Assembly: GCA_016176845.1 (NCBI GenBank)
Contig: JACOWJ010000031.1
Location: 1 to 33,685 of the forward strand
DNA: 33,685 nucleotides
Reading direction: 5' to 3'
Origin: Nitrospinota bacterium
Lineage (GTDB): Bacteria > 2-12-FULL-45-22 > JACOWJ01
Shown: positions 6,869 through 25,380 of the stretch, piece by piece
Numbering within the stretch: the first letter of the stretch is position 1
Layout: every line of letters begins with the position of its first letter
Translations under genes and position numbers: made by a program
Notes under the pieces: model-generated
Told to the model about the DNA's origin: nothing
What the model saw: the letters and a program-made list of their open reading frames with translations, nothing else
Database searches by the model: none

Positions 6869-7027
6869 CTCGCACCTCAATCCCCCCGATCTAACGCCTT
6901 GTCATCTCATCGTTTGATTGCCTTCACACGGTAAACCTTCAGACAATACAATATTTTTGCCATCTTCGTTGCGCCAAGTCAAGAGGATTGTGGACTAAAT
7001 AACTTGCCCATTTGGTTCCCTGCAGAA

Positions 7028-7089
7028 AGTTTTAGGTTTTAGGTTTTAAGTTTTAAGCCCTAAAACCTAAAACCTAAAACTTAAAACCT
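7028..7089. repeat. AAAACCTA-word inverted repeat
   Basis: Tandem TTTTAGG words (7029-7047) face tandem TAAAACC words (7061-7088) and can form a long AT-rich hairpin. It has the same architecture as the other spacer repeats but a different word. Confidence 0.7.
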
Positions 7090-7126
7090 TCATTTTTCAT
7101 TTTTCATTTTGCCTTTCTTTGTCCCT

Positions 7127-7188: not shown

Positions 7189-7716
7189 CTAACCGCCAGG
7201 CTTGGTGAAGCCCCCGTGGGCATCCACCTTGATGTCCTTGCGCAAGAGCGTCCGCTCCGACCGGTCCATCTGGGCCCGCGGGGCCCTTCGATCGACCCGC
7301 AGGGCATACTTGGGACACTTCCGCTCACAGGTCAAGCAGATGTCACAATTGACCAGGTTCGCTTCCGCCGGAAGTAACTTACCCTCTACAATGTGCAAGA
7401 CCCCCAGATCCCCAGCATCCTCCCCGGAGTAGAGGCAGGCCTTGATGCAGGTCCCACACCCATCGCACTTGTCCAGGTCCAGGATGAACCAGGCCATCTT
7501 GCGCAGGTTGGTGCCTACCCCAAAAGCCCTGGAGAGCCTCTCGTACCCCTCCGCATACTGCTCCTCATGGATGGGAGGACAATCATCGATGTTCTTCTTG
7601 CCAGCGATCAACATCATGGCGAAGGCCATGCATTTGGGAAGGCCGCACAGGCCGCAATTGGTCTTGGGCAGCATATGGTAGATTTCCGGTGGCTGTAACT
7701 TCCTTTCATCGGCCAC
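7189..7716 (-). CDS. Fe-S protein: CFeSP-type cluster domain fused to a ferredoxin domain
   Basis: Predicted 175 aa. Residues 12-50 carry a CX2CX4C-type cluster motif (NCGLCGLPKCMAFA, with a later DDCPP). This matches the Fe-S domain at the N-terminus of the large subunit of the corrinoid Fe-S protein (CdhE/AcsC, PF04060-like). A ferredoxin part follows with CDGCGTCIKAC and CDICLTCERKCP. The corrinoid-binding barrel is absent. The start is GTG 7716, with AAGGAG 8 nt upstream, and it begins 3 nt after the acetyl-CoA synthase stop, which indicates tight coupling. By inference it delivers electrons to that protein, for example for reductive activation of its nickel-iron site. It is the last gene before the terminator. 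Confidence 0.75.
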   Translation of the reverse strand: MADERKLQPPEIYHMLPKTNCGLCGLPKCMAFAMMLIAGKKNIDDCPPIHEEQYAEGYERLSRAFGVGTNLRKMAWFILDLDKCDGCGTCIKACLYSGEDAGDLGVLHIVEGKLLPAEANLVNCDICLTCERKCPKYALRVDRRAPRAQMDRSERTLLRKDIKVDAHGGFTKPGG

Positions 7717-7719
7717 AGA

Positions 7720-9009
7720 CTAAGCTCCTTCATACCTCGACTTAATGGGATGGCCTGCCTCGATCAGCCACTTTTTGATGGCATCGGTGTCGGCCGTCCC
7801 CACTTCTTCATCGGCGATCCTGGCATAGAGCTCTTCGGGGATCGCATCCGCCAACCGCTCCTTAAGCTCCTTGGGCATCCAGACTATCCGCTCCCAGCCG
7901 CCATCGCCCTGCATGAACTTGTCGATGCGGGCCGTCCGGAGGGAGGTCCCGCAATATCCATCGAACTGCACCCCACCGCTGACCTGACCGGCCACCGTGG
8001 AGAAATCCAACCCTAAAGGCAACAACTCTTTGAAACCGCGATGCACGATCCCTAAACCATCCAGGTCGGGAATGTAGAAACACAAGATCTCGAATCACCC
8101 TCACGAAGTTTGGGGGTAACTGATCGTGCTGTAAAGGTGGAGCCGCTTGATGGTATCATTCGACTTCTGGCGCACGGCGTCATTGATACCCTCGTACTCC
8201 CCTTGCAGCTCATCGATCAGATTCCCCTTCTGGAACTTGTGGAGGTAACCATGGGGGTCCATCTCGATGATGATCTCCGCATCATCGTACATGGTGATCC
8301 CGCAGAAGGGCGGCCGCTCTGGGGCGATCACGCAGACATGGTTGAAGGCGAAAGTCTGGCAGAGCGTGCAGCCGAAGAAGTGCTCCACGTCGTCATCCTT
8401 GCGCTCACCGATGTAACGGTCCCGCTTGTCCCAGATGGGCATGGCATAGTTCTCGATCTGATCCCGGACGGCATCCGGGTCGCAGGTGCGGAACTCCGCC
8501 TCGATAGCGTCCACCATGTCGGGCAGGGCCGCCTTAATCATCATCATGGTGCCCCGGGCCAGCTCGGCGGCGGTAAAGCCGCCCTTGACGAGCTTCTTGG
8601 TCAGACGCGTCCAGAGGTACTGCCGGGTGTTGACCCGCATGTAGCCCTCGACCTGATCCTGGAACTCGATGAGGTTGCGCTCCACCAGAGAGGTGTGCCG
8701 CTCGGTGAGGTTCGCCCCATAGACCCTGAGGATCCAGACGAAGGGATAAATGCCCCCTTGCTCCATCTCATTGAAATCCGGTCCGATCAGCGTGACCTTC
8801 CCGTCAGTTACTTTGGTGGGATCCGACTCGGTCACCAACAGGTCGAACCCGCAGCTTTTTGGGCCTCCTAACTCCACGAACATGTCTTCTCTGAGGACGC
8901 GCTCGCCCAGGTAGCGAGGGCCGAAGTTCACGGTGATGCCTTCGGCCAGTTCCTCAGGATCCGTGGGAAGCTGGAAGACCCTGGGTTCCCAGGTCTTCTC
9001 TTCCGCCAT
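7720..9009 (-). CDS. CdhC-like acetyl-CoA synthase with two in-frame UGA codons at the A-cluster cysteines (putative selenoprotein)
   Basis: A single frame of 429 codons, read through UGA at 8103-8101 (residue 303) and 8097-8095 (residue 305). The N-terminal part matches archaeal-type CdhC (MFVELGGPK, KVTLIGPD). The A-cluster cubane cysteines are C214, C217, C226 and C236, in the family spacing CX2CX8CX9C. Families then read HTSCGCFE..FYIP; here it is QTS-UGA-G-UGA-FE..FYIPDLDG with no gap. The C-terminal part is also canonical (GGGxQ-like GGVQ, DGGWERIVWMPKELKERL, IADEEVGT). The two Cys hold the distal nickel and bridge both nickels in the known enzyme. UGA ends several other genes here, so selenocysteine is the likeliest insertion. 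ATG 9009 has AAGGAGGA upstream. The long N-terminal CODH-docking domain of acetogen enzymes is lacking, as in archaea. Confidence 0.85.
8049..8071 (-). promoter_or_regulatory. Candidate bacterial SECIS hairpin inside the acetyl-CoA synthase gene
   Basis: On the minus strand CCCGACC (8070-8064) pairs with GGTT (8058-8055) and GGG (8052-8050), with a two-base bulge (8054-8053) and an outer T-A pair. The apical loop TGGAT (8063-8059) has a G at its second position. The loop begins 31 nt after the second UGA and 37 nt after the first. As I recall it, the bacterial SECIS model needs roughly 16-37 nt and a G in the first two loop bases. The stem is short and bulged. Confidence 0.45.
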
Positions 9010-9166: not shown

Positions 9167-9625
9167 TCAAGCCAACCCCTGCAAGGCTTTCAGCCATTCC
9201 TCATGGGAGAGGTGCCGATCGGCCAAACAGAGGTCGGCCCCCTCGATCGGGTCCCGATCCAGAGAGACGGCGGTCACTTTACCGCCGTAGTTCTTGCAAT
9301 TGTTCACCAGCCGCTGCAGTTGGTTCCGATAGAAGGAAAGGAACAGCACCGCCTTCCCATCGTACCCCTTCCGCTGGGTGGATTCCACCAGAAACTCCGA
9401 GACCGGCAGGAACTTCACCTTCTCGTAAAAGGTGTACTTATCCGAAGCATACTTCACCACGCTGGCCAGGGAGTAGACCTGGGCCTTGACGTTGGGGACC
9501 AGCTGCTGCAGCAGGTCCAATAGCTGGGAAGAACCGTCCTGGTAATCCACCGGCTCCTTGGGGCCGATGATCAGGACGCTGCCCTCCTGGCCAAGCCATT
9601 CCTTGATGCGCTGAGAATCGCTCAC
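9167..9625 (-). CDS. CdhB-like (ACDS epsilon-type) subunit
   Basis: Predicted 152 aa. It resembles the small epsilon subunit of the acetyl-CoA decarbonylase/synthase complex (CO dehydrogenase beta-subunit family, PF02552-like). An early VLIIGPKEP strand corresponds to VVGTE-type sequence in CdhB. The C-terminal YDGKAVLFLSFYRNQLQ...VSLDRDPIEGADLCLAD matches the YDMVVFLGF...IAIDRNY pattern. The fold is Rossmann-like without a catalytic site; in ACDS it packs on the alpha subunit. The start is probably GTG 9625, before SDSQRIKEW; AT-rich repeat sequence precedes it, so longer starts are unlikely. The position directly after the CdhA-like gene fits the cdhA-cdhB order of methanogens. The assignment rests on remembered similarity and synteny. 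Confidence 0.6.
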   Translation of the reverse strand: MSDSQRIKEWLGQEGSVLIIGPKEPVDYQDGSSQLLDLLQQLVPNVKAQVYSLASVVKYASDKYTFYEKVKFLPVSEFLVESTQRKGYDGKAVLFLSFYRNQLQRLVNNCKNYGGKVTAVSLDRDPIEGADLCLADRHLSHEEWLKALQGLA

Positions 9626-9639
9626 TTTTCCACCCACCT

Positions 9640-9775
9640 CCCTTTGCTCGCTTCGCGAGAATTGCAAATTGCAGAATGCAAAGTGCAAAGTGCAAAATGA
9701 AAATCTAGATTACTGCGGTTCTTCCATTTTGCATTTTGCATTTTTCATTTTGCATTCTGCACTTTCCCCGAAGGG
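9640..9775. repeat. AATGCAAA-word inverted repeat spacer
   Basis: Tandem words (TTGCAGAATGCAAAGTGCAAAG) face CATTTTGCATTTTGCATTTT words, preceded by the palindrome CTCGCTTCGCGAG near 9647. The same composite occurs at 12614-12730 and 14970-15108, each between genes of the same locus. Confidence 0.7.
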
Positions 9776-12613: not shown

Positions 12614-12730
12614 TCTCGCTTCGTTCGCATTGCAAAAGGAAAAATGCAAAGTGCAAAGTGCAAAGTGCAAAATGAAGATTTAGGTTGCATCTTCTTCCAT
12701 TTTGCATTTTTCATTTTTCATTTTGCACTT
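12614..12730. repeat. AATGCAAA-word inverted repeat spacer
   Basis: CTCGCTTCGTTCG is followed by tandem ATGCAAAGTGCAAAG words and, after a short centre, by TTTTGCATTTTTCATTTTTCATTTTGCA words. It lies within the locus between the AAA+/VWA and zinc-finger genes. Confidence 0.7.
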
Positions 12731-14961
12731 CAACTGTGTGTAACCGTCGCCTTCTGCTCCTGGAGCATGATGTCCGGCAACGCCTTGATGTCCTCCACCA
12801 GGAAGATCCGCCCTCCCCCGATCTTGGCGAGCTTGCGCATCAAATCGACGTTGGAGTTGCCCTCCACCAGACAAACCGTGGAGAGGGTGATCCCCTTGCT
12901 GCGGGTGATCACGGCCTCCTTGATGGCATAGCCATTCGGATCGGTGTAAGGGGCGGTGGCATCCCCATCCGAGATCAGGATGATGTGGGGGGTGGTGGTG
13001 GACTTCTTCTGCATCAAGGCCACCTCCCGGGCCACCTTGAGGGCCTGGCCGATGTTGGTGAAGGCCTTCTTGTGGATCGAGAGGTTAACCATGGTCTCCA
13101 TGATCAGGATCGGATTGTCGGTAGGGTCCAACAGCTTCTTGGCCATGTTGGAGAAGGTCAGCAGCCCCACCCGGTCGTGGTAGATGGTGCTGGCGCTGGC
13201 CAGTGCCCCCGCCGCCTCCTTGGCGTACCAGAGCTTGTCCCCCTGGACCATGGTCCCGGAGACGTCCAGGGCCAGGTAGATGTCCAGGCGGGTGGTCCGG
13301 CCGTGGTCGTAGACCCGAAAATCCTCCCGCAGGATGTGATCCCGCTTGTTTTTGATGGCCTCACGGATCGTCTCCCGCAGGGCGAAGTCCTTGTAGCGAT
13401 CGCCCAGCCGGTACTTGCGGACATTCAAGGAGCGCTCCTTGAAAAGCACGGCGGTCCGCGTGTTCGTCCGATGCTTGCCATCGGCCGAGATGCGGGCCCG
13501 CTGGCCGAATTCCGGGGGCAGCAGGTTGTCCATCAGGCGCCGGACCCCCCGCTTGTGGAGCACCCAGCCCTCCCGGTCCCGCTGGAGCACCTGAAGCTTG
13601 TGGAGGACCTCCAGCGTCGCCTCCAGGGCGTCCTTTTCCAGCTCCTTGAAGAGGTAGTCGTCGTCCTCCATCCGCTCCCGCGCCTCCTCGATCTCCTGGA
13701 GCACCTCCCAGTCGTGGGCCAGCTTCTTCTTCTTGTCGGCCATCGACTCTTGTTTCTTCTTTTTGAGCTCCTCGAGCACCTTGGCGTGGAGTTGCGCCAG
13801 CTCCGAGTCGGGCATGTTCTTGATCCGCTGGAGCAGGATATCATTGAAGCCGTAGCGCAGCGGGATGCGGAAGAGGTCCTTCTCGGCGATCTCCTTGGAG
13901 ATATCCGTGATGTCCTCCAGGTCGTACTGCTCCCGCATCTCCATCTCGTTGAAGCCTTCGTCCTCCGGCTTGCCCAGGATCAGCTCCGAGACCAGCCGAT
14001 TGGGGTCCACGCAGGAAATGGCGGACCGCTTCAGCTTGATTCGATGAGGGAAGGAGAGCATGGCCGCCTCGTAGAAGTCATCCATCGACATTTTCCGCTC
14101 ATGGATGTAAGGCAAGGTCTCAAACAGCTCCACGCAGCGGATGGTCCCCCGGGGGCTGATCCCCTGCTGGACATCATCGTGTCGGCGGATCTGGTAGACC
14201 AGGTCGATCGCCTTCTCCACGTACTCCCGCATCCCATCGCCCTTCTCCACCAACCCCTGGATGTTTTCATGCAGGATTCGCTGATCTTCCTGGGGATCCT
14301 CGGGATAGGAGACCTTGATCACGTCAAAGTGGTCCAGCAAGTCGGACGAGAGCCTCCGAACCGCCTTCTCGTTGCCCGTGCCCACGATGACCAGGTCCAG
14401 GGGCAACTGCCGGTCCACCCGGCCCAGCTCCAGCATATCCCCATCCAGGACCTGCAGGATGAGGTTCAGGGTCCGCTCCGGGATCTGGTCGATCAGGTCG
14501 ATCAAGAGGACCCCGTTGTTTCCCTTGAGGAGCTTGCCGGGCGAGAAGGAACGCAGGTCCCGCATGCCGAACTGGAGGCTGTACTCCGGGGCCAGATCCC
14601 CGACGATGTCGTTGGGCTTGAGGTCGGGATGGCCCTGGATCTTGGTGAGCCGCTCCTCACCGCCGAGGCTGGCGCGGGTCTTTTCTCCATCTCCCAGACA
14701 CCAGGGACACTTCGGATCCTCCCAACGGCACCGCAAGGGGCAATCCCGGACGATATCGATCCGGGGAAGGATGTTGGCGATGTTTCCGGCCAGCCGGGTC
14801 TTGCCACTGCCCGGCGGCCCCAGGATCAGGATATGATGTCCCGACATCAGACTCGAGATGAGGTCTTTCTGGGTCTTCTCGCTAAATGCAAGTCCACTGA
14901 ACAACTGCTCTCGCTTTGCCGGGTCTTGCAGCGCCGCGTAAATCTCTTCCTTAATCAGCAT
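12730..14961 (-). CDS. AAA+/VWA fusion protein, chelatase-like (MoxR/BchI plus BchD architecture)
   Basis: At 743 aa it combines an N-terminal AAA+ domain with a C-terminal von Willebrand A domain, as in the I and D subunits of Mg/Co chelatases. Walker A is GPPGSGKT (48-55). The Walker B region reads LLIDLID (152-158), so the catalytic Glu of the usual DE pair is Leu, which suggests weak or no ATP hydrolysis. A CX3CX6CX2C motif (C74, C78, C85, C88) lies between the two and recurs in the neighbouring AAA+ protein. A charged helical linker (about 385-465) leads to the VWA domain, with MIDAS residues D566, S568, T570, T635 and D665. ATG 14961 has GAGGGGG 4 nt upstream. By inference it acts with the other AAA+ protein to insert or remodel the metal site of the CdhA/CdhC-like proteins. 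Confidence 0.85.
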   Translation of the reverse strand: MLIKEEIYAALQDPAKREQLFSGLAFSEKTQKDLISSLMSGHHILILGPPGSGKTRLAGNIANILPRIDIVRDCPLRCRWEDPKCPWCLGDGEKTRASLGGEERLTKIQGHPDLKPNDIVGDLAPEYSLQFGMRDLRSFSPGKLLKGNNGVLLIDLIDQIPERTLNLILQVLDGDMLELGRVDRQLPLDLVIVGTGNEKAVRRLSSDLLDHFDVIKVSYPEDPQEDQRILHENIQGLVEKGDGMREYVEKAIDLVYQIRRHDDVQQGISPRGTIRCVELFETLPYIHERKMSMDDFYEAAMLSFPHRIKLKRSAISCVDPNRLVSELILGKPEDEGFNEMEMREQYDLEDITDISKEIAEKDLFRIPLRYGFNDILLQRIKNMPDSELAQLHAKVLEELKKKKQESMADKKKKLAHDWEVLQEIEEARERMEDDDYLFKELEKDALEATLEVLHKLQVLQRDREGWVLHKRGVRRLMDNLLPPEFGQRARISADGKHRTNTRTAVLFKERSLNVRKYRLGDRYKDFALRETIREAIKNKRDHILREDFRVYDHGRTTRLDIYLALDVSGTMVQGDKLWYAKEAAGALASASTIYHDRVGLLTFSNMAKKLLDPTDNPILIMETMVNLSIHKKAFTNIGQALKVAREVALMQKKSTTTPHIILISDGDATAPYTDPNGYAIKEAVITRSKGITLSTVCLVEGNSNVDLMRKLAKIGGGRIFLVEDIKALPDIMLQEQKATVTHS

Positions 14962-14969
14962 AATCCCCC

Positions 14970-15108
14970 TCGCTTCGCGAGAATTGAAAAATGCAAAATG
15001 TAAAATGCAAAATGAAAATTTAGACGGAATTTAGATTGCCATGGCTCTTTCATTTTAAATTTTGCAATTTTCAATTTTCATTTTGCATTCGACATGCGCA
15101 GCATGTCG
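14970..15108. repeat. AATGCAAA-word inverted repeat spacer
   Basis: CTCGCTTCGCGAG is followed by GAAAAATGCAAAATGTAAAATGC-like words; on the far side lie TTTTGCAATTTTCAATTTTCATTTTGCA words. It is the third copy of the composite spacer inside this locus. Confidence 0.7.
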
Positions 15109-15906
15109 TTAAAGGATTTCCAGCTTCCGGAGGACCTCCTTGACTCCCTGGACCGTGGTGGAATCCGCCGGGAGCTCCAATAGCGAGCGGCCCTCGATAT
15201 CGAATTGGGTGACGTACGGGTCGGGCGGCAGGATGCCGATCGGCTCGATCCCATATTGCTTGAGCTTCTCGGCGACAGGCGGGCCCATGGCCGGCTCCAC
15301 CCGGTTGATGATCCCGTACATCTCCGCGATCTCGACCCCCGATTCCTCCTTCATCTCCTTGGTCAGGTCTTTGACCACCTTGGCCGTCGCGACCCCCTTG
15401 GCAGAGGGATCTGTGACAATGAACATGATGTCCACCCCTCGAGTGGTGCGGCGGCTGAGGTGCTCCATGCCCGCCTCACAATCGATGACACAGAAATCGA
15501 AGGCCTTGGACAGAGTATCGATGGCCGATCGAATGATGTGGTTGGATGGGCAATAACAACCTGGTCCTTCCGGGCGACCCATCACCAGGAGCGAGTAGCC
15601 CTCGGCCTCCACCATGCTCTGGAGCAGCTGGTACTCGAACATCGTGCTGGCGTGATGGATCCCTTTCAGGGTGGGCACCCGCTTACGGGAATCGGCCTTC
15701 ATCTCCTCGCGGAGATGGCCCACCGACTCGTACTCTCGAATCCCCAAGGAGATGGGCAAAGAGACCGCCGGGTCGGCATCCACCGCCAGGATCTTCTTGT
15801 GGGTCTCTTCCCGTAAGACCTTGATCAGCACCGTGGTCAGCATCGTCTTGCCCGTGCCGCCTTTCCCGGAAAAAGCTAACACCAGGCTCGATCCATTACT
15901 TCTCAT
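15109..15906 (-). CDS. CooC-type nickel-insertion ATPase
   Basis: At 265 aa it belongs to the MinD/ParA-like P-loop family. The deviant Walker A reads GKGGTGKT (15-22), followed by AVDADPAVSLP. The GPGCYCPSN stretch carries the CXC pair that binds nickel or zinc at the dimer interface of CooC/AcsF. These proteins use ATP to help nickel insertion into CODH or acetyl-CoA synthase. FCVIDCEAGMEHLSRR and IVTDPSAKG are further family motifs. The start is the ATG at 15906 (GGGAG 11 nt upstream). Its presence supports the view that the complex encoded here still receives nickel even though the CdhA-like site is changed. Confidence 0.88.
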   Translation of the reverse strand: MRSNGSSLVLAFSGKGGTGKTMLTTVLIKVLREETHKKILAVDADPAVSLPISLGIREYESVGHLREEMKADSRKRVPTLKGIHHASTMFEYQLLQSMVEAEGYSLLVMGRPEGPGCYCPSNHIIRSAIDTLSKAFDFCVIDCEAGMEHLSRRTTRGVDIMFIVTDPSAKGVATAKVVKDLTKEMKEESGVEIAEMYGIINRVEPAMGPPVAEKLKQYGIEPIGILPPDPYVTQFDIEGRSLLELPADSTTVQGVKEVLRKLEIL

Positions 15907-16075: not shown

Positions 16076-17095
16076 CTATTTTGTGACGTCCTTGATTACC
16101 TTCTCCAGCAACTCGTCCGGGTTCTCATAATACTGAGACTGGGGCGATATGCGGATGCGGCTCATCAGAACCGAGCCGGCACACTCCAGCAGGTCGCTCA
16201 CCGAGGCCTCGTGACGGCCGTTAAAGAGGGTCAAGGTCTGTACCTTCTCGTAGAGACCGATGCTGGCACGGGGGCTGGCCGGCTGTTCAAACTCGTCGGC
16301 CCACTTGCCGCTGCGGGTCGCCTGGACCATCCGGACGATCGAATCAACGACGCTATCGGGGACGATGCCGTCACCGTATTTCCTGGACTTCTCCAGGATG
16401 ACGCGCCGCTCGATCTCGGGCGACTCAGGATAGGTCATGCGGACCATGTCGAAGCGGTCCAGCAACACGTCCGAGAGCTCCTCGGTCCCGGCATGCTCCT
16501 TGGGGTTCATGGTGGCGATCATGATGAACTCGGCCGGGTAATCGATATCGTAGGAGCCGATGGTAGCGATATGCTCCTCGAGCACCTGCAGCAAAGAGTT
16601 CTGGAGCTTCTCGGGGACGCGGTTGATCTCATCGAAGAAGACCACGCCGCGGTTGCCTTTGAGCAGCTTGCCCGGGGTGAAAACCCGGTAGTCGGTAGGG
16701 CCGTATTTGAAGGCCAGGGAGGGATCGATATCTCCCAAGAGGTCTTCGACCGAGAGGTCGGGGCTGCCCTGGATGCGGCGGAACCGGTTGACGCCCGGTA
16801 TGGTCTCTGCCTCGAGGGAGCCCTCTTTCGACTTGCACATCGGGCAAACGGGGGATTGCGGCTCGCAGAAGAACTGACAGCCCTTCACGGCCTCCACGGA
16901 GGGCAGCAACGTGGCGATCTGCCTGGCCAGCGTGGTCTTGCCGATCCCCGGAGGCCCCACGATGATCACATGGTGTCCGGCCAGGACCGAGGCCAGGATC
17001 TGCTTTTTGGCCTTCTCCTGGCCATAGATATCCGTTAACGGATCGGTATCCAGCCTGGTGTTTCTTCTTAATGCCTCGTAGACTTTCTCTGCCAT
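16076..17095 (-). CDS. MoxR-type AAA+ ATPase (chelatase I-like)
   Basis: The product is 339 aa. Walker A GPPGIGKT (47-54) and Walker B VVFFDEIN (151-158, with intact Asp155 and Glu156) indicate an active ATPase. Sensor 1 reads MIATMNP and the LLDRFDM motif follows, as in MoxR and BchI. Between the Walker motifs sits CX3CX6CX2C (C73, C77, C84, C87), identical in spacing to that of the AAA+/VWA protein. The PGKLLKGNRG loop is also shared. The start is ATG 17095, 8 nt after GGAGGAG; an upstream in-frame ATG (17119) would place the ribosome site inside the gene. It is probably the active motor of a two-subunit complex with the AAA+/VWA protein. Confidence 0.88.
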   Translation of the reverse strand: MAEKVYEALRRNTRLDTDPLTDIYGQEKAKKQILASVLAGHHVIIVGPPGIGKTTLARQIATLLPSVEAVKGCQFFCEPQSPVCPMCKSKEGSLEAETIPGVNRFRRIQGSPDLSVEDLLGDIDPSLAFKYGPTDYRVFTPGKLLKGNRGVVFFDEINRVPEKLQNSLLQVLEEHIATIGSYDIDYPAEFIMIATMNPKEHAGTEELSDVLLDRFDMVRMTYPESPEIERRVILEKSRKYGDGIVPDSVVDSIVRMVQATRSGKWADEFEQPASPRASIGLYEKVQTLTLFNGRHEASVSDLLECAGSVLMSRIRISPQSQYYENPDELLEKVIKDVTK

Positions 17096-17126
17096 AAACG
17101 CTTCTCCTCCATGAGTCATGGTAGCT

Positions 17127-17892: not shown

Positions 17893-17921
17893 TTGACTTG
17901 GGGGGAGAGTTAAGCTATGGT
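17893..17921 (+). promoter_or_regulatory. Promoter of the acyl-CoA dehydrogenase gene
   Basis: TTGACT (17893-17898), a 17-nt spacer and TATGGT (17916-17921). The leader to the ATG at 18027 is about 100 nt. It is divergent from the CODH/ACS-like locus promoter. Confidence 0.65.
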
Positions 17922-18026
17922 AGGGAACCTGACTGTCTATCCGGAAACCCCCCTTTCTCCTTGTGTTTTTTTGCTTTTTTGCTTTTGAGGATTAACCGAC
18001 ATCCCAATATGGAGGAGATCCACAGC

Positions 18027-19181
18027 ATGCTCAACCTTTCCTTCTCCGAAGACCAGGAGCTCTTCAGGCAGATGGTACGTGAATTCGCCCAGACGGAGCT
18101 GGCCCCCGGCTACCTGGAGAGGGCCAAGCGAGAGGAGGCCCCTCGCGAGGAGTTCCGGAAGATGGCAGAGCTGGGCCTCACCGGCATCAACATTCCCGAG
18201 GAGTACGGCGGCCAGGGGGCCGATTATGTCACCATCGGAATCGCCATCGAGGAGATCGCCCGGGCAGACATCAACTGCTCCTATCCGATTGCCGTCGGGG
18301 GGCTAGGAGGCGGCGCCTTCCTCAAGCACGGCACTCCAGAGCAGCGGGAAACATGGCTTCCCAAAATCACCCGGGGAGAGACGCTGTTAGGCCTGGCCCT
18401 GACCGAGCCCGGCTGCGGCTCGGACGCTGCCGCCATGAAGACCACCGCCTTGCGCGAGGGGGACGGCTACGTCCTCAACGGCGAGAAGTCCTCCATCAGC
18501 TTCGTCAACTGTGCCACCGACTTCTTCCTCTTCGCCAAGACCGACCCCAAGGCGGGGGCCCGGGGGGTGAGCTGCTTCCTGGTGCCGATGGATGCCCCAG
18601 GCCTGACCACCTCCATTTTCCACGATATGGGCTGCAAGCCGATCGGACGAGGGGCCCTGGCCCTGAAAGAGGTGCACATCCCGGCCTCCAGTCTGATGGG
18701 CCAGGAGGGACGCGGCTTTCACCTGGTCATGGAGGAGTTCGACTACACCAAGGTCTTGATCGGCCTGATGTGCCTGGGAACGGCCCAGGCAGCCCTGGAG
18801 GACGCCATCGCCTACGCCAAGGAGCGAAAGGCCTTCGGGAAGCCTATCGCCCGCTTCGAGGGGGTCTCCTTCCTGATCGCCGAACATGCCACCCGCATGG
18901 AGGCCGCCCGGCTGCTTTGCTATCAGGCCCTGTGGCTGCGCGACCAGGGCAAGCCCCACACGAAAGAGGCCTCGATGTGCAAGTGGTGGGTCCCTAAGAT
19001 CTCCGCCGAGGCCATCCACGATGCCCTGCTGATCCACGGTCACCTGGGCTACTCGGACGAGTACCCCCTGGAGCAGCGGTGGCGAGACGTCCTGGCCTTC
19101 CAGATCGCCGACGGGACCGCCCAGATCCAAAAAATCATCATCAGCCGGGAGATCCTGGGGAGGGAATATCTGCCGTATTAA
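18027..19181 (+). CDS. Acyl-CoA dehydrogenase with Asp in place of the usual catalytic Glu
   Basis: At 384 aa it has the size of a short/medium-chain acyl-CoA dehydrogenase, an FAD enzyme that oxidises acyl-CoA to enoyl-CoA and passes electrons to ETF. Family motifs are in order: INIPEEYGGQGAD, LALTEPGCGSDAA (FAD/substrate), NGEKSSISF, YAKERKAFGKPI and IHGHLGYSDEYPLEQRWRD. The usual YEGTSEIQ near the C-terminus reads ADGTAQIQ, so the catalytic base Glu appears to be Asp362. This may shift the substrate range or reaction. ATG 18027 has GGAGGAG 9 nt upstream. A longer open frame starting at TTG 17898 overlaps the promoter and is rejected. The electron acceptor is probably the ETF encoded downstream. 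Confidence 0.92.
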   Translation: MLNLSFSEDQELFRQMVREFAQTELAPGYLERAKREEAPREEFRKMAELGLTGINIPEEYGGQGADYVTIGIAIEEIARADINCSYPIAVGGLGGGAFLKHGTPEQRETWLPKITRGETLLGLALTEPGCGSDAAAMKTTALREGDGYVLNGEKSSISFVNCATDFFLFAKTDPKAGARGVSCFLVPMDAPGLTTSIFHDMGCKPIGRGALALKEVHIPASSLMGQEGRGFHLVMEEFDYTKVLIGLMCLGTAQAALEDAIAYAKERKAFGKPIARFEGVSFLIAEHATRMEAARLLCYQALWLRDQGKPHTKEASMCKWWVPKISAEAIHDALLIHGHLGYSDEYPLEQRWRDVLAFQIADGTAQIQKIIISREILGREYLPY

Positions 19182-19183
19182 AT

Positions 19184-19325
19184 TAGGGGACAGGGAACAG
19201 GGGACAGGGTCCCAATAATCTGTGCCCTAATAATGAAAATTCCTGGTTTTAAATTAGGGATTAGGGGCTAGGGCTAGTAAGAAATAAGAGCTTTTGCTAA
19301 TCCCTAGCCCCTAATCCCTAACCCC
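19184..19325. repeat. GGGACAGG and GGGATTAG word repeats
   Basis: ACAGGGAACAGGGGACAGG words come first. A hairpin follows with arms TTAGGGATTAGGGGCTAG and CTAATCCCTAGCCCCTAATCC around a loop with AAGAGCTTTTG. That loop and arm design matches 385-478 in reverse orientation. Confidence 0.7.
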
Positions 19326-19436
19326 TAACTTGATCGCATAGGAATTTCCTTTTCCGATGAATGCAGTACCACCATGAGCAGGAAATAGAGAGGGGGAGTT
19401 CCTATCCCCTATCCCCTGTAACCTGTCCCCTAACTT
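19326..19436 (+). repeat. Dispersed repeat of about 105-110 bp, copy 1 (inverted relative to copy 2)
   Basis: It runs from AACTTGATCGCATAGGAATT through a unique-looking centre (GCAGTACCACCATGAGCAGG) to TATCCCCTGTAACCTGTCCC. The reverse complement at 25276-25380 differs at only a few positions. It sits just before etfB. Confidence 0.85.
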
Positions 19437-19450
19437 GAGGAGAGCCGACA

Positions 19451-20236
19451 TTGCCGGAGATGATCGTCTGTTTCAAAGAAGTGGTGGACGAGCGGGAGCT
19501 CAAGGTAAACCCGAAGACCCAGGAGCTGATGACCGAGGGGATCACCCGCAAGATCAGCGATTTCGACCTGAACGCCATCGAAGAGGCCATCCGGATCAAG
19601 GAAATGCACGGGGGGCGGGCCACCGGAGTCATCGTGGGCCTGCCGGAATGCAAGCCATCCATCAAGAAGGCTCTCTCCATGGGGCTCGATCGCGCCTGCC
19701 TGCTCAGTGACCCGGCCTTTGCGGGCTCCGATACCCTGACGGTGGCCGCCATCCTGGCCGCAGCCATCCGGAAGCTAGGCCCCTTTGACATGATCCTGTG
19801 CGGCGAGGCCAGCACCGACGGCTTTTCGGCACAACTGGGCCCCAGCCTGGCGGAGCGGCTGGACCTCCCCCAAATTACCGCCGCCAGCCAGGTGACGATC
19901 GAAGGGAATCAGGTGGTGGCCGAGCGCAGCCTGGATGATGGCATCGAGGTGGTGGAGGCCTCTTTTCCCGTCCTCCTCAGCGTGACCAAGGAGATCAACA
20001 AGCCCCGATTGGCCACCCTCAAGCAGATCCTGGCCGCCTCGAAGAAGGAGGTCCTGGAATGGAAAGCAGCCGACCTGGGCCTCTCGACCGATGCGGTTGG
20101 GCTACAGGGATCGCCGATAGTGCTGAAACGGGTGGCCGCCTTCCGGATGGAGCGCAAAAACATCCGGCTGGAGGGGACTTTGGCGGAAGCGGCCGAGAGG
20201 GCGATCCGGGAACTGCTCCGAGAAGGGGTACTATAG
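19451..20236 (+). CDS. etfB: Electron transfer flavoprotein beta subunit
   Basis: Predicted 261 aa. It has the EtfB pattern: MIVCFKEVVDE at the start, KISDFDLNAIEEAIRIKE, KKALSMGLDRACLL, the GPFDMILCGEASTDGFSAQLGPSLAERL segment that contacts AMP/flavin, and SFPVLLSVTKEINKPRLATLKQI (the recognition loop region). EtfB and EtfA form a heterodimer that takes electrons from acyl-CoA dehydrogenases. The TTG at 19451 has GAGGAG 8 nt upstream, which favours it over the ATG at 19460. The stop overlaps the GTG that precedes etfA by one base, so the two genes are translationally coupled. The repeat element separates it from the acyl-CoA dehydrogenase gene. Confidence 0.93.
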   Translation: MPEMIVCFKEVVDERELKVNPKTQELMTEGITRKISDFDLNAIEEAIRIKEMHGGRATGVIVGLPECKPSIKKALSMGLDRACLLSDPAFAGSDTLTVAAILAAAIRKLGPFDMILCGEASTDGFSAQLGPSLAERLDLPQITAASQVTIEGNQVVAERSLDDGIEVVEASFPVLLSVTKEINKPRLATLKQILAASKKEVLEWKAADLGLSTDAVGLQGSPIVLKRVAAFRMERKNIRLEGTLAEAAERAIRELLREGVL

Positions 20237-20238
20237 TG

Positions 20239-21231
20239 ATGAAGAACGAGGAGTATCGAAATGTTTGGGTCTTCTCGGAGGTCAAAGAGGTCGCCCTGGA
20301 GCTTCTAAGCCTGGGACGACAACTGGCTGACTCCCTGGGGGTCGAGCTGGGGGCGCTGGCCCTGGGGAACGGGGCTGAGGCCCAGGCGAGCGAGTACATC
20401 GCCTATGGGGCCGATCGGGTCTACGTCGGCCAGCACCCCGCCCTGAGCCGTTTCTCCGTCGAGCCTTACACCGATCTCATCGCGGGCCTGGCCGGGCAGC
20501 ACCGTCCTGAGGTCCTGCTCATCGGGGCCACCAAAAGGGGGAAAGAGCTGGCCCCTCGGGTGGCCACCCGCCTGGGGACAGGCTGTGCTGCCGACTGCAT
20601 CTCGCTGACGATTGAGGGGGAATCTCGGGCCCTGCAGGTCGAGCGGGTGGTTTACAGCGGCAATGCCCTGGCCATGCTCACTTATCGGAACCGGCCCCAG
20701 GTGGCCACCATCCCCCCAGGGATCTTCCAGCGGCGGGAGCGGGAGGAAAATCGCCCCGGCGAGATCATTCTGGCCGAGCTCCCCATCCGGGAGCCGCGCA
20801 CCAGGGTCCGGGAGGTGCGGGAGAAGGAGAAGGGGTCAGTCAACATCGAGGCCGCCGAGGTGGTGGTATCCTGCGGTCGTGGATTGAACCATCCCGAGGA
20901 CATTCAGCTCATCCGGGAGCTGGCTGAGCTTTTGGGGGCAGAGGTGGGCTGCTCTCGCCCCATTGCCGCCGACCTGCAGTGGCTCTCGGAGGATCATTGG
21001 GTGGGACTCTCCCGCCATAAGGTGCGCCCTAAGCTCTACATCGCCTGCGGCATCTCCGGGCAGATCCAGCACATCGCCGGCATCCGCGATGCCCGCATCG
21101 TCCTGGCCATCAACCAGGACGATGCGGCCCCCATCTTTCAGTCGGCCGATTACGGCATTGTGGGCGATCTCTATCAGGTAATCCCGGCGCTGAAGGAGGC
21201 CTACCAGCGGATCGTGAAGCGGGAGTCATAA
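20239..21231 (+). CDS. etfA: Electron transfer flavoprotein alpha subunit
   Basis: Predicted 330 aa. The C-terminal FAD domain is diagnostic: VVSCGRGLNHPED, GCSRPIAADLQW, VRPKLYIACGISGQIQHIAGIRDARIVLAINQDDAAPIFQ (in pieces) and ADYGIVGDLYQVIPAL. The N-terminal half has the ETF alpha/beta fold (VWVFSEVKEVALELL, YIAYGADRVYV, PEVLLIGATKRGKELAPRVATRL). FAD is bound here and electrons pass on, usually to a quinone oxidoreductase or a bifurcating partner. Neither is encoded nearby. The start is ATG 20239; GTG 20236, which overlaps the etfB stop, is equally spaced from GAAGGGG and remains possible. Confidence 0.94.
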   Translation: MKNEEYRNVWVFSEVKEVALELLSLGRQLADSLGVELGALALGNGAEAQASEYIAYGADRVYVGQHPALSRFSVEPYTDLIAGLAGQHRPEVLLIGATKRGKELAPRVATRLGTGCAADCISLTIEGESRALQVERVVYSGNALAMLTYRNRPQVATIPPGIFQRREREENRPGEIILAELPIREPRTRVREVREKEKGSVNIEAAEVVVSCGRGLNHPEDIQLIRELAELLGAEVGCSRPIAADLQWLSEDHWVGLSRHKVRPKLYIACGISGQIQHIAGIRDARIVLAINQDDAAPIFQSADYGIVGDLYQVIPALKEAYQRIVKRES

Positions 21232-23936: not shown

Positions 23937-25283
23937 GTGAATCGCGAAACGGTTCTGACCATCGCAGGCTCCGACCCCTGCGGAGGGGCGGGGATCCAGG
24001 CCGATCTGAAGACCCTGGCGGCCTGTGGGGTCCATGGCGTATCGGCCATCACCGCCATCACGGCCCAGAATACCAGCGGCGTCCAGCAGGTCTTTCCCCT
24101 GCCGGCGGAGCAGGTGGCCGCCCAGATCGACGCAGTGGCGGGAGACCTGAAGATCGCAGCCGCCAAGACCGGGATCCTCTGTCAGGCCGCGATCGTCCGG
24201 GTCGTCTGCCAAAAGGCGGTCCAATACCGCCTGGAGAAATTGGTCGTCGACCCCGTCTTGTGGTCAGGGAGCGGCCATCCCTTCTTGCAGGGGGAAGACC
24301 TCCGCGTCTTCCAGGCGGAGCTGGTTCCCCGGGCTTACCTGTTAACCCCCAACCTGACCGAGGCCGAGGCCTTGACCGGCCTGAGGGGCATCCAGGACAC
24401 GAGGGGGATGAAGGAGGCCGCGGTGAAGTTGCATGGATTGGGGGCCAGAAACGTCTTGCTCAAGGGAGGCCATCTGCCGGGAGAGCCGCTCGACCTGCTC
24501 TACGATGGCCTCGCCTTCACGGAGTACCGGGAGGAGCGAAGGCCCGGGCTGGCCCATGGGACCGGCTGCACGCTGGCGGCGGCCATTGCAGCGGGACTGG
24601 CCAGGGGGTTAGATCTGCAAGCGGCCGTAGGCAAAGCGAAGGCCTACCTGACTGCCCTGCTGGATCATCCCCTGAAGGTAGGCCAGGGGCAGCTGCTGCT
24701 CGATCCCCTCTTTCCACTGCGGCGAGAGGCGGAGCGTTATGCCCTCCTCCAGGAGACGAATCGGGCCCTGGAGCGGCTCAAGCAAGAGAAGATTGGACGG
24801 CTCATTCCCGAGGTGCAGAGCAACCTTGGGGTGGCCCTGACGGGGGCCGAAGGGGCGGAGGATGTTTTGGCGGTGCCCGGTCGCATCATCGGCCTGGGGG
24901 AGGAGATCCACTGGATCCGCCCCCCCGCCTTTGGGGCCTCGCGGCACGTGGCCAAGATCATCCTCACTGTCCTGCGGCACGACCCGGCCCGGAGAGCCGC
25001 CATGAACCTCCGCTATTCTCCCGAGATCCTGGAGGCCTGTCGTCGCCTGCAGCTCAGGATCGGCTCCTTCGATCGATCCGACGAGCCGGCGGAGGTGATG
25101 AGCCGCGAGGGGGCTTCCCTGGAATGGGGGACGGAGGAAGCGATCCGGCGCTTCGGGGGGGTGCCCGACATCATCCACGATGGAGGGGGAATCGGGAAGG
25201 AGGCCATGATCCGCGTCCTGGGAAACGACGCTGAAGATCTGGCCAACCGAGTCATCGCAATCCACCGGGAATTGACAAGTTAG
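23937..25283 (+). CDS. thiDN: Bifunctional HMP/HMP-P kinase - thiamine-phosphate synthase (ThiD-ThiN fusion)
   Basis: At 448 aa it joins two enzymes of thiamine synthesis. Residues 1-265 are Thi[21 protein letters not shown] (substrate site), [39 protein letters not shown] and [18 protein letters not shown] (catalytic Cys region). The remainder is ThiN (PF10120-like), which replaces Thi[52 protein letters not shown] and [20 protein letters not shown]. The fusion is common in archaea and occurs in some anaerobic bacteria. The start is GTG 23937, with GAGGAGGT 4 nt upstream; an open frame continuing upstream overlaps the HIT gene out of frame and is not real. No thiE or TPP riboswitch is visible. 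Confidence 0.93.
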
Positions 25284-25380
25284 GGGACAGGGAACAGGGG
25301 ATAGGAACTCCCTCTCTCTATTTCCTGCTCATGGTGGTACTGCAATCATCGGAAAAGGAAATTCCTATACGATTAAATTA
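25276..25380 (-). repeat. Dispersed repeat of about 105-110 bp, copy 2
   Basis: The reverse complement of 19326-19436 with only a few changes. It begins at the thiDN stop codon. Together the two copies flank etfB, etfA, the radical SAM gene, HIT and thiDN (about 5.8 kb) as an inverted pair. Confidence 0.85.

Follow-up and report, generated by a model that had tools for sequence, protein, structure and literature searches.

The question raised by this locus is what two in-frame UGA codons encode at the nickel site of an apparent acetyl-CoA synthase (ACS), and what kind of chemistry such a subunit might serve. The window, i.e., the whole 33,685-nt stretch of Nitrospinota DNA that was analyzed, holds the gene on its minus strand (Table 1). 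Its frame starts at an ATG with a Shine-Dalgarno-like GGAGGA just upstream and runs continuously to a TAG, the sole interruptions being two TGA codons with GGG between them (TCG, 8106-8104; TGA, 8103-8101; GGG, 8100-8098; TGA, 8097-8095; TTC, 8094-8092). When TGA is read as selenocysteine (Sec), the product matches TIGR00316/PRK04456 CdhC across residues 23 to 426 with scores exceeding the curated cutoffs (443 bits against TIGR00316; cutoff, 355.95). U303 and U305 align with Cys278 and Cys280 of the solved Methanosarcina thermophila CdhC (9c0s), the thiols of which were modelled in that structure as ligands of the proximal nickel (PMC11474084). Direct reading of the frame and this alignment agree with the sequence-only reading of the same DNA, which had placed UGA-Gly-UGA in one frame at the A-cluster Cys-Gly-Cys and had found the four other A-cluster cysteines kept; C214, C217, C226, and C236 are invariant in the family. 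At the Cys-Gly-Cys used to recognize CdhC, the window ACS thus has UGA in both columns and Gly between them, and Sec at both nickel columns is expected to be a functional equivalent of Cys. An AlphaFold model of the subunit built on 22 sequences reached a pLDDT of 90.6 (an input of 10 sequences gave a poor C-terminal half), and every one of its 28 significant PDB matches was an ACS, the best being 9c0s (E value, 1.3e-51). Several uncultured bacterial lineages appear to have an acetyl-CoA-synthase-type subunit with Sec at both nickel-bridging positions.

Table 1. Features of the ACS gene and its neighbors in the window
Feature	Positions	Strand	Remarks
175-aa protein with CdhE/AcsC-type FeS domain (PF04060) and ferredoxin domain	7189..7716	-	3 bases behind the ACS stop
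CdhC-like acetyl-CoA synthase (ACS beta), predicted selenoprotein gene	7720..9009	-	429 aa; ATG 9009, TAG 7722-7720
Candidate SECIS hairpin UCCCGACC-UGGAU-GGUUuaGGGA	8049..8071	-	Spacing, loop, and energy within published bSECIS limits
Second predicted Sec codon UGA (U305)	8095..8097	-	Column of Moorella Cys597/M. thermophila Cys280
First predicted Sec codon UGA (U303)	8101..8103	-	Column of Moorella Cys595/M. thermophila Cys278
A-cluster [4Fe-4S] cysteines C214, C217, C226, C236	8302..8370	-	Invariant across the family
173-aa protein in CdhB (epsilon) position	9167..9688	-	Assigned by position in the cluster
CdhA-like subunit, 855 aa	9779..12346	-	TIGR00314 E value 4e-151, 504 bits, below the cutoff of 781
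AAA+ and VWA protein (ChlD/cobaltochelatase-like), putative metal-center maturation	12730..14961	-	
CooC-like MinD/ParA-type P-loop ATPase, putative nickel insertion	15109..15906	-	Neighbor kept in relatives
MoxR/ChlI-type AAA+ ATPase	16076..17119	-	Conserved neighbor

A DNA-pattern scan for UGA-Gly-UGA-Phe-Glu in 84,980 species genomes returned ten matches, six of which are ACS genes from four Deltaproteobacteria metagenome-assembled genomes (MAGs), one Nitrospinae MAG, and one Chloroflexi MAG. The other matches (L036, L041, L042, and L043) lacked ACS surroundings and were rejected as chance. The double UGA occupies both columns in seven genomes, that of the window and six other MAGs, whose ACS proteins are 38 to 44% identical to the window ACS; the sequence-only reading had proposed a search for homologues with TGA at these columns, and the outcome is in its favor. 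One of these genomes, G001, belongs to the same order as the window, and its ACS, which shares 38% identity with that of the window, has both TGAs as well. In a sample of 386 genomes, 39 ACS copies were found; TGA was present in 2 of them, both of the window's order, and in none of the remaining 37. Denoting the residues at the three loop columns by their letters (U, Sec), same-clade relatives of the UGU proteins carry UGC in one paralogue (G065) and CGC in two (G060 and G063) at identical columns. UGU, UGC, and CGC proteins form one clade, with support of 100/100, that branches apart from both archaeal CdhC and bacterial AcsB and all members of which are known from MAG contigs. Sec and Cys thus interchange at exactly these columns. 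An equivalent of Phe512 is present in the window ACS and in clade A (G060 to G063), with Ile in its place in clade B (G001 and G065). G065 has two ACS paralogues, one UGC and one UGU (L063:5399-6769 [+] and L064:1842-3200 [+]), and G060 and G063 each combine one UGU copy with one CGC copy; the paralogous clusters within one genome may work together. Genes of this kind are easily overlooked, because gene callers that take UGA as a stop split them in two.

Decoding of UGA as Sec relies on dedicated machinery and on a SECIS element behind the codon. The window genome, a 1.53-Mb MAG that is 68% complete, encodes tRNA-Sec (UCA anticodon), SelA, SelB, and SelD, i.e., all four components that the sequence-only reading had proposed to look for, and SelA is present in all six other genomes hosting a double-UGA ACS. 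The selD gene of the window genome (L017, G000:C23:19348-20271) is itself a selenoprotein gene with an in-frame TGA, behind which a GCAG-GUC-CUGC hairpin places its loop at 33 nt. Bacterial SECIS elements are expected 16 to 37 nt behind the UGA (PMC13188914). The UGGAU loop of the candidate hairpin in the window ACS gene (-11.0 kcal/mol) lies 31 nt past the second UGA and 37 nt past the first. This stability was equaled by 19 of 60 synonymous recodings, so a SECIS in the window is considered plausible; the hairpin sits in the same place as the block conserved in the relatives and differs from it in sequence. Folding energy was rejected as proof of a SECIS, similar energies being reached by synonymous recodings and by Cys-coded homologues, and an Rfam scan of the SECIS region matched no family.

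Codon comparison of clade A with clade B revealed 91% identity of synonymous codons (59/65) in a block behind the UGAs versus 39% (671/1705) elsewhere, and the most conserved of the 388 12-codon windows fall in this block. Pairwise, G060, G001, and G065 are identical at 8/8 codons of the block, and their longest identical DNA runs, of 24 to 27 nt, begin 27 to 30 nt from the first base of the first UGA. A nucleotide-identical block thus extends in three lineages from about 30 to 54 nt from the first UGA, and it behaves as a SECIS would. The block, AUCCC-UCA-GGU-UGA-Y-GGGAU, is predicted to fold as a hairpin with its GGU loop 29 nt past the second UGA and 35 nt past the first, within the 16- to 37-nt rule. 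As both codons fall within the bacterial range, one hairpin could serve both.

The genes around the ACS gene recur in the relatives, where the conserved cluster comprises a MoxR/ChlI-type AAA+ protein, a CooC-like ATPase, an AAA+/VWA protein, a CdhA-like subunit, mostly a CdhB-like subunit, and ACS. The candidate CdhB of the window (P0005) gave only a weak collinear signal (E value, 0.02). The 175-aa FeS/ferredoxin protein is likely an electron donor. No corrinoid CdhD or CdhE is encoded within the window ACS cluster. The G001 cluster is followed directly on its 3′ side by a gene resembling formylmethanofuran dehydrogenase subunit B (L062:241-1461 [-]; TIGR03129 E value, 4.8e-90), which connects it to C1 metabolism. 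In the window, genes for an acyl-CoA dehydrogenase and EtfA at 17898-21231 (+) are divergent from the adjoining cluster, and a functional link is possible. Window intergenic spacers also contain repeats with a 7-nt period (TTTTGCA, CCCTAAT, and TTTTAGG), frequently paired face to face as hairpins, at 385-477, 7025-7091, 9647-9768, 12615-12741, 14969-15094, 19246-19438, and 25272-25305; given these repeats, a single transcript across the cluster is no more than possible.

The CdhA-like partner was compared with CO dehydrogenases (CODHs) at the C-cluster ligands His261 and Cys295, 333, 446, 476, and 526 (CODH-II numbering from the 1su6 alignment), using published ligand equivalences for mapping onto CdhA (PMC10502027). 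None of the six ligands is in register in CdhA alignments of the window subunit. Both exo-iron ligands, His261 and Cys295, are absent from 8/8 members of the CdhA-like family, including the relatives at L059, L060, L061, L062, and L066. The other four C-cluster cysteines are kept by the six relatives covering all sites, and a truncated relative keeps both cysteines that can be read; these relatives could hold a plain [4Fe-4S] cluster in place of the C-cluster. Replacement of Cys295 leaves a CODH unable to interconvert CO and CO2 (PMC13240472). Because of this precedent and the loss of C-cluster ligands, the CdhA-like subunit very probably does not act as a CO dehydrogenase.

The reading of both UGAs as Sec, which we consider close to certain, was weighed against three other origins of the two codons. 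UGA might be read as another residue (Trp, Gly, or Cys) through code reassignment or readthrough, and the frame stays open whatever UGA encodes. This alternative is nevertheless highly improbable: UGA terminates the RelA/SpoT, AAA-VWA, Rng, TIGR03960, and FlgT_C genes, so that at least five clear genes of the window end with it and the code is not simply reassigned, as had been argued from the sequence at the outset; besides, UGA alternates with Cys only in the relatives, and the Sec machinery is complete in the window genome. A gene decaying through two nonsense mutations would likewise present two in-frame stops, and the adjoining CdhA-like protein without catalytic ligands would suit such decay, but the conservation of the double UGA in seven genomes, among relatives as distant as those described above, refutes a pseudogene, the probability of which we take as negligible. 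Apart from the two UGAs, neither stop nor frameshift interrupts any of the seven double-UGA ACS genes, and in the window the surrounding ORFs are intact and the ribosome site is good. In no relative do the two halves occur as free-standing genes, an arrangement that would have spoken against a single product. Misreading or misassembly of TGC/TGT codons is just as negligible a possibility, refuted by seven separate assemblies that have the same UGAs in differing contexts (preceded by TCG or AAC and separated by GGG or GGC). With both UGAs at these columns in seven genomes and none in 37 other ACS copies, the pair is not due to chance, which bears out the initial judgment that two random nonsense hits were unlikely.

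A different objection accepts Sec but holds that the protein is an ordinary acetyl-CoA synthase/decarbonylase receiving CO from a separate CooS and the methyl group from a corrinoid protein encoded elsewhere, with selenium merely tuning rate or oxygen tolerance. The A-cluster cysteines, the Phe512 equivalent of the window and clade A proteins, and the entire ACS fold are retained, as this explanation would have it, and CooS was found in six of seven host genomes. We nonetheless deem it unlikely, with perhaps a quarter of our confidence, since the CdhA-like partner is devoid of C-cluster ligands, clade B has Ile in place of Phe512, and G060 to G063 already carry a normal CODH/ACS besides the Sec-ACS cluster. 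Neither CooS nor CdhD was found in the window genome (G000), which is weak evidence given its 68% completeness, and G001 has CooS and no corrinoid CdhD/AcsCD above the cutoff, the latter being the case in G000 too. These findings in G060 to G063, G000, and G001 favor a function beside or other than normal acetyl-CoA synthesis. The initial assignment as acetyl-CoA synthase therefore holds for the protein family, whereas ordinary function is called into question by the separate clade, the ligand-poor CdhA-like partner, and the normal CODH/ACS of some hosts; the complex alone probably does not carry out ordinary CO2-to-acetyl-CoA synthesis.

The explanation that we favor, and hold to be very likely as a whole, is that of an ACS-type subunit with a Sec-Gly-Sec loop, working in a CODH/ACS-derived complex without a C-cluster and performing nickel organometallic chemistry. 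Sequence comparison shows the Sec reading, its position, the clade, the cluster, and the loss of C-cluster ligands, beyond which nickel occupancy, selenolate bridging, the maturation roles, and the reaction are inferences. SelB and tRNA-Sec would decode both UGAs, guided by one SECIS hairpin within range of each. The Sec-Gly-Sec loop would substitute for Cys-Gly-Cys, the two selenolates bridging the proximal and distal nickel beside the Cys-bound [4Fe-4S] cluster; a selenolate nickel site in the window ACS is strongly suggested. The subunit would act in a complex descended from an archaeal-type CODH/ACS, in which the CdhA-like partner without a C-cluster could serve as scaffold and Fe-S electron relay, electrons entering via the 175-aa FeS/ferredoxin protein and the CdhA-like clusters. 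The CooC-like and ChlI/ChlD-like ATPases would, judging from what CooC and ChlI/ChlD do, load metal. The nickel site might support acyl/alkyl/CO organometallic chemistry, making or cleaving acyl-CoA, with CO or another substrate not supplied by a C-cluster of the same complex. Compared with thiolates, selenolates are better donors, are more polarizable, and are more readily re-reduced once oxidized; they could favor nickel in a low-valent state or shield the site. As to the more specific proposal that a selenolate-bridged dinickel A-cluster, in a complex without CO2/CO interconversion, catalyzes an organometallic transfer of acyl or alkyl groups that has yet to be described, we see the chances as evenly balanced.

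ACS ranks among the oldest enzymes of carbon fixation, and how its nickel site works remains a matter of debate. Natural selenium at both bridging positions would be a ready-made probe, accessible to 77Se magnetic resonance and Se K-edge X-ray absorption, which could report oxidation states and bridging modes of the nickel pair. The Sec reading would add ACS to the selenoenzymes and, if true, the acyl/alkyl-transfer reading would make this the first nickel site with two selenocysteines and would open a new branch in the ACS family. The paired C-cluster loss suggests a branch of ACS chemistry that may be uncoupled from CO2 reduction.

In open-access PMC full text, we found no description of Sec in CdhC, acetyl-CoA synthase, decarbonylase, or CODH, in keeping with the sequence-only reading, by which no described enzyme is known to have a Sec-Gly-Sec nickel site, although a prior description elsewhere is possible. 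CdhC/ACS beta is missing from the 119 prokaryotic selenoprotein families catalogued in a 2026 review, among which Sec-containing HgcA appears. The latter, a CdhE-like protein listed in reviews of the prokaryotic selenoproteome, is also a relative of a CODH/ACS component, but it is a corrinoid protein with one Sec and no nickel site. UxxU Prx-like, FmdB-like, and MbdU proteins are precedents for two close Sec residues in one bacterial protein; they represent other families, and among those listed there is no UGU motif in ACS. The CdhA-like partner recalls CODH-V (CooS-V of Carboxydothermus hydrogenoformans), which has altered C-cluster ligands and shows no interconversion of CO and CO2 (PMC13240472 and PMC9311411); CODH-V is, however, of the bacterial CooS type with Glu at position 295, whereas the window partner is of the CdhA type and lacks the equivalents of His261 and Cys295. 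Like Sec-ACS, [NiFeSe] hydrogenases have Sec in place of a nickel-binding Cys (PMC13188914), with one Sec at the nickel and hydrogen chemistry as opposed to two predicted Sec residues at positions bridging two nickels. Finally, Sec-ACS has in common with CdhC (TIGR00316) and the two C-terminal domains of AcsB the fold, the four cluster cysteines, and the S/N-x-G-x-F-E loop, and differs from them in the predicted replacement of both nickel-bridging cysteines by Sec, in its separate clade (100/100), and in having no A1 domain.
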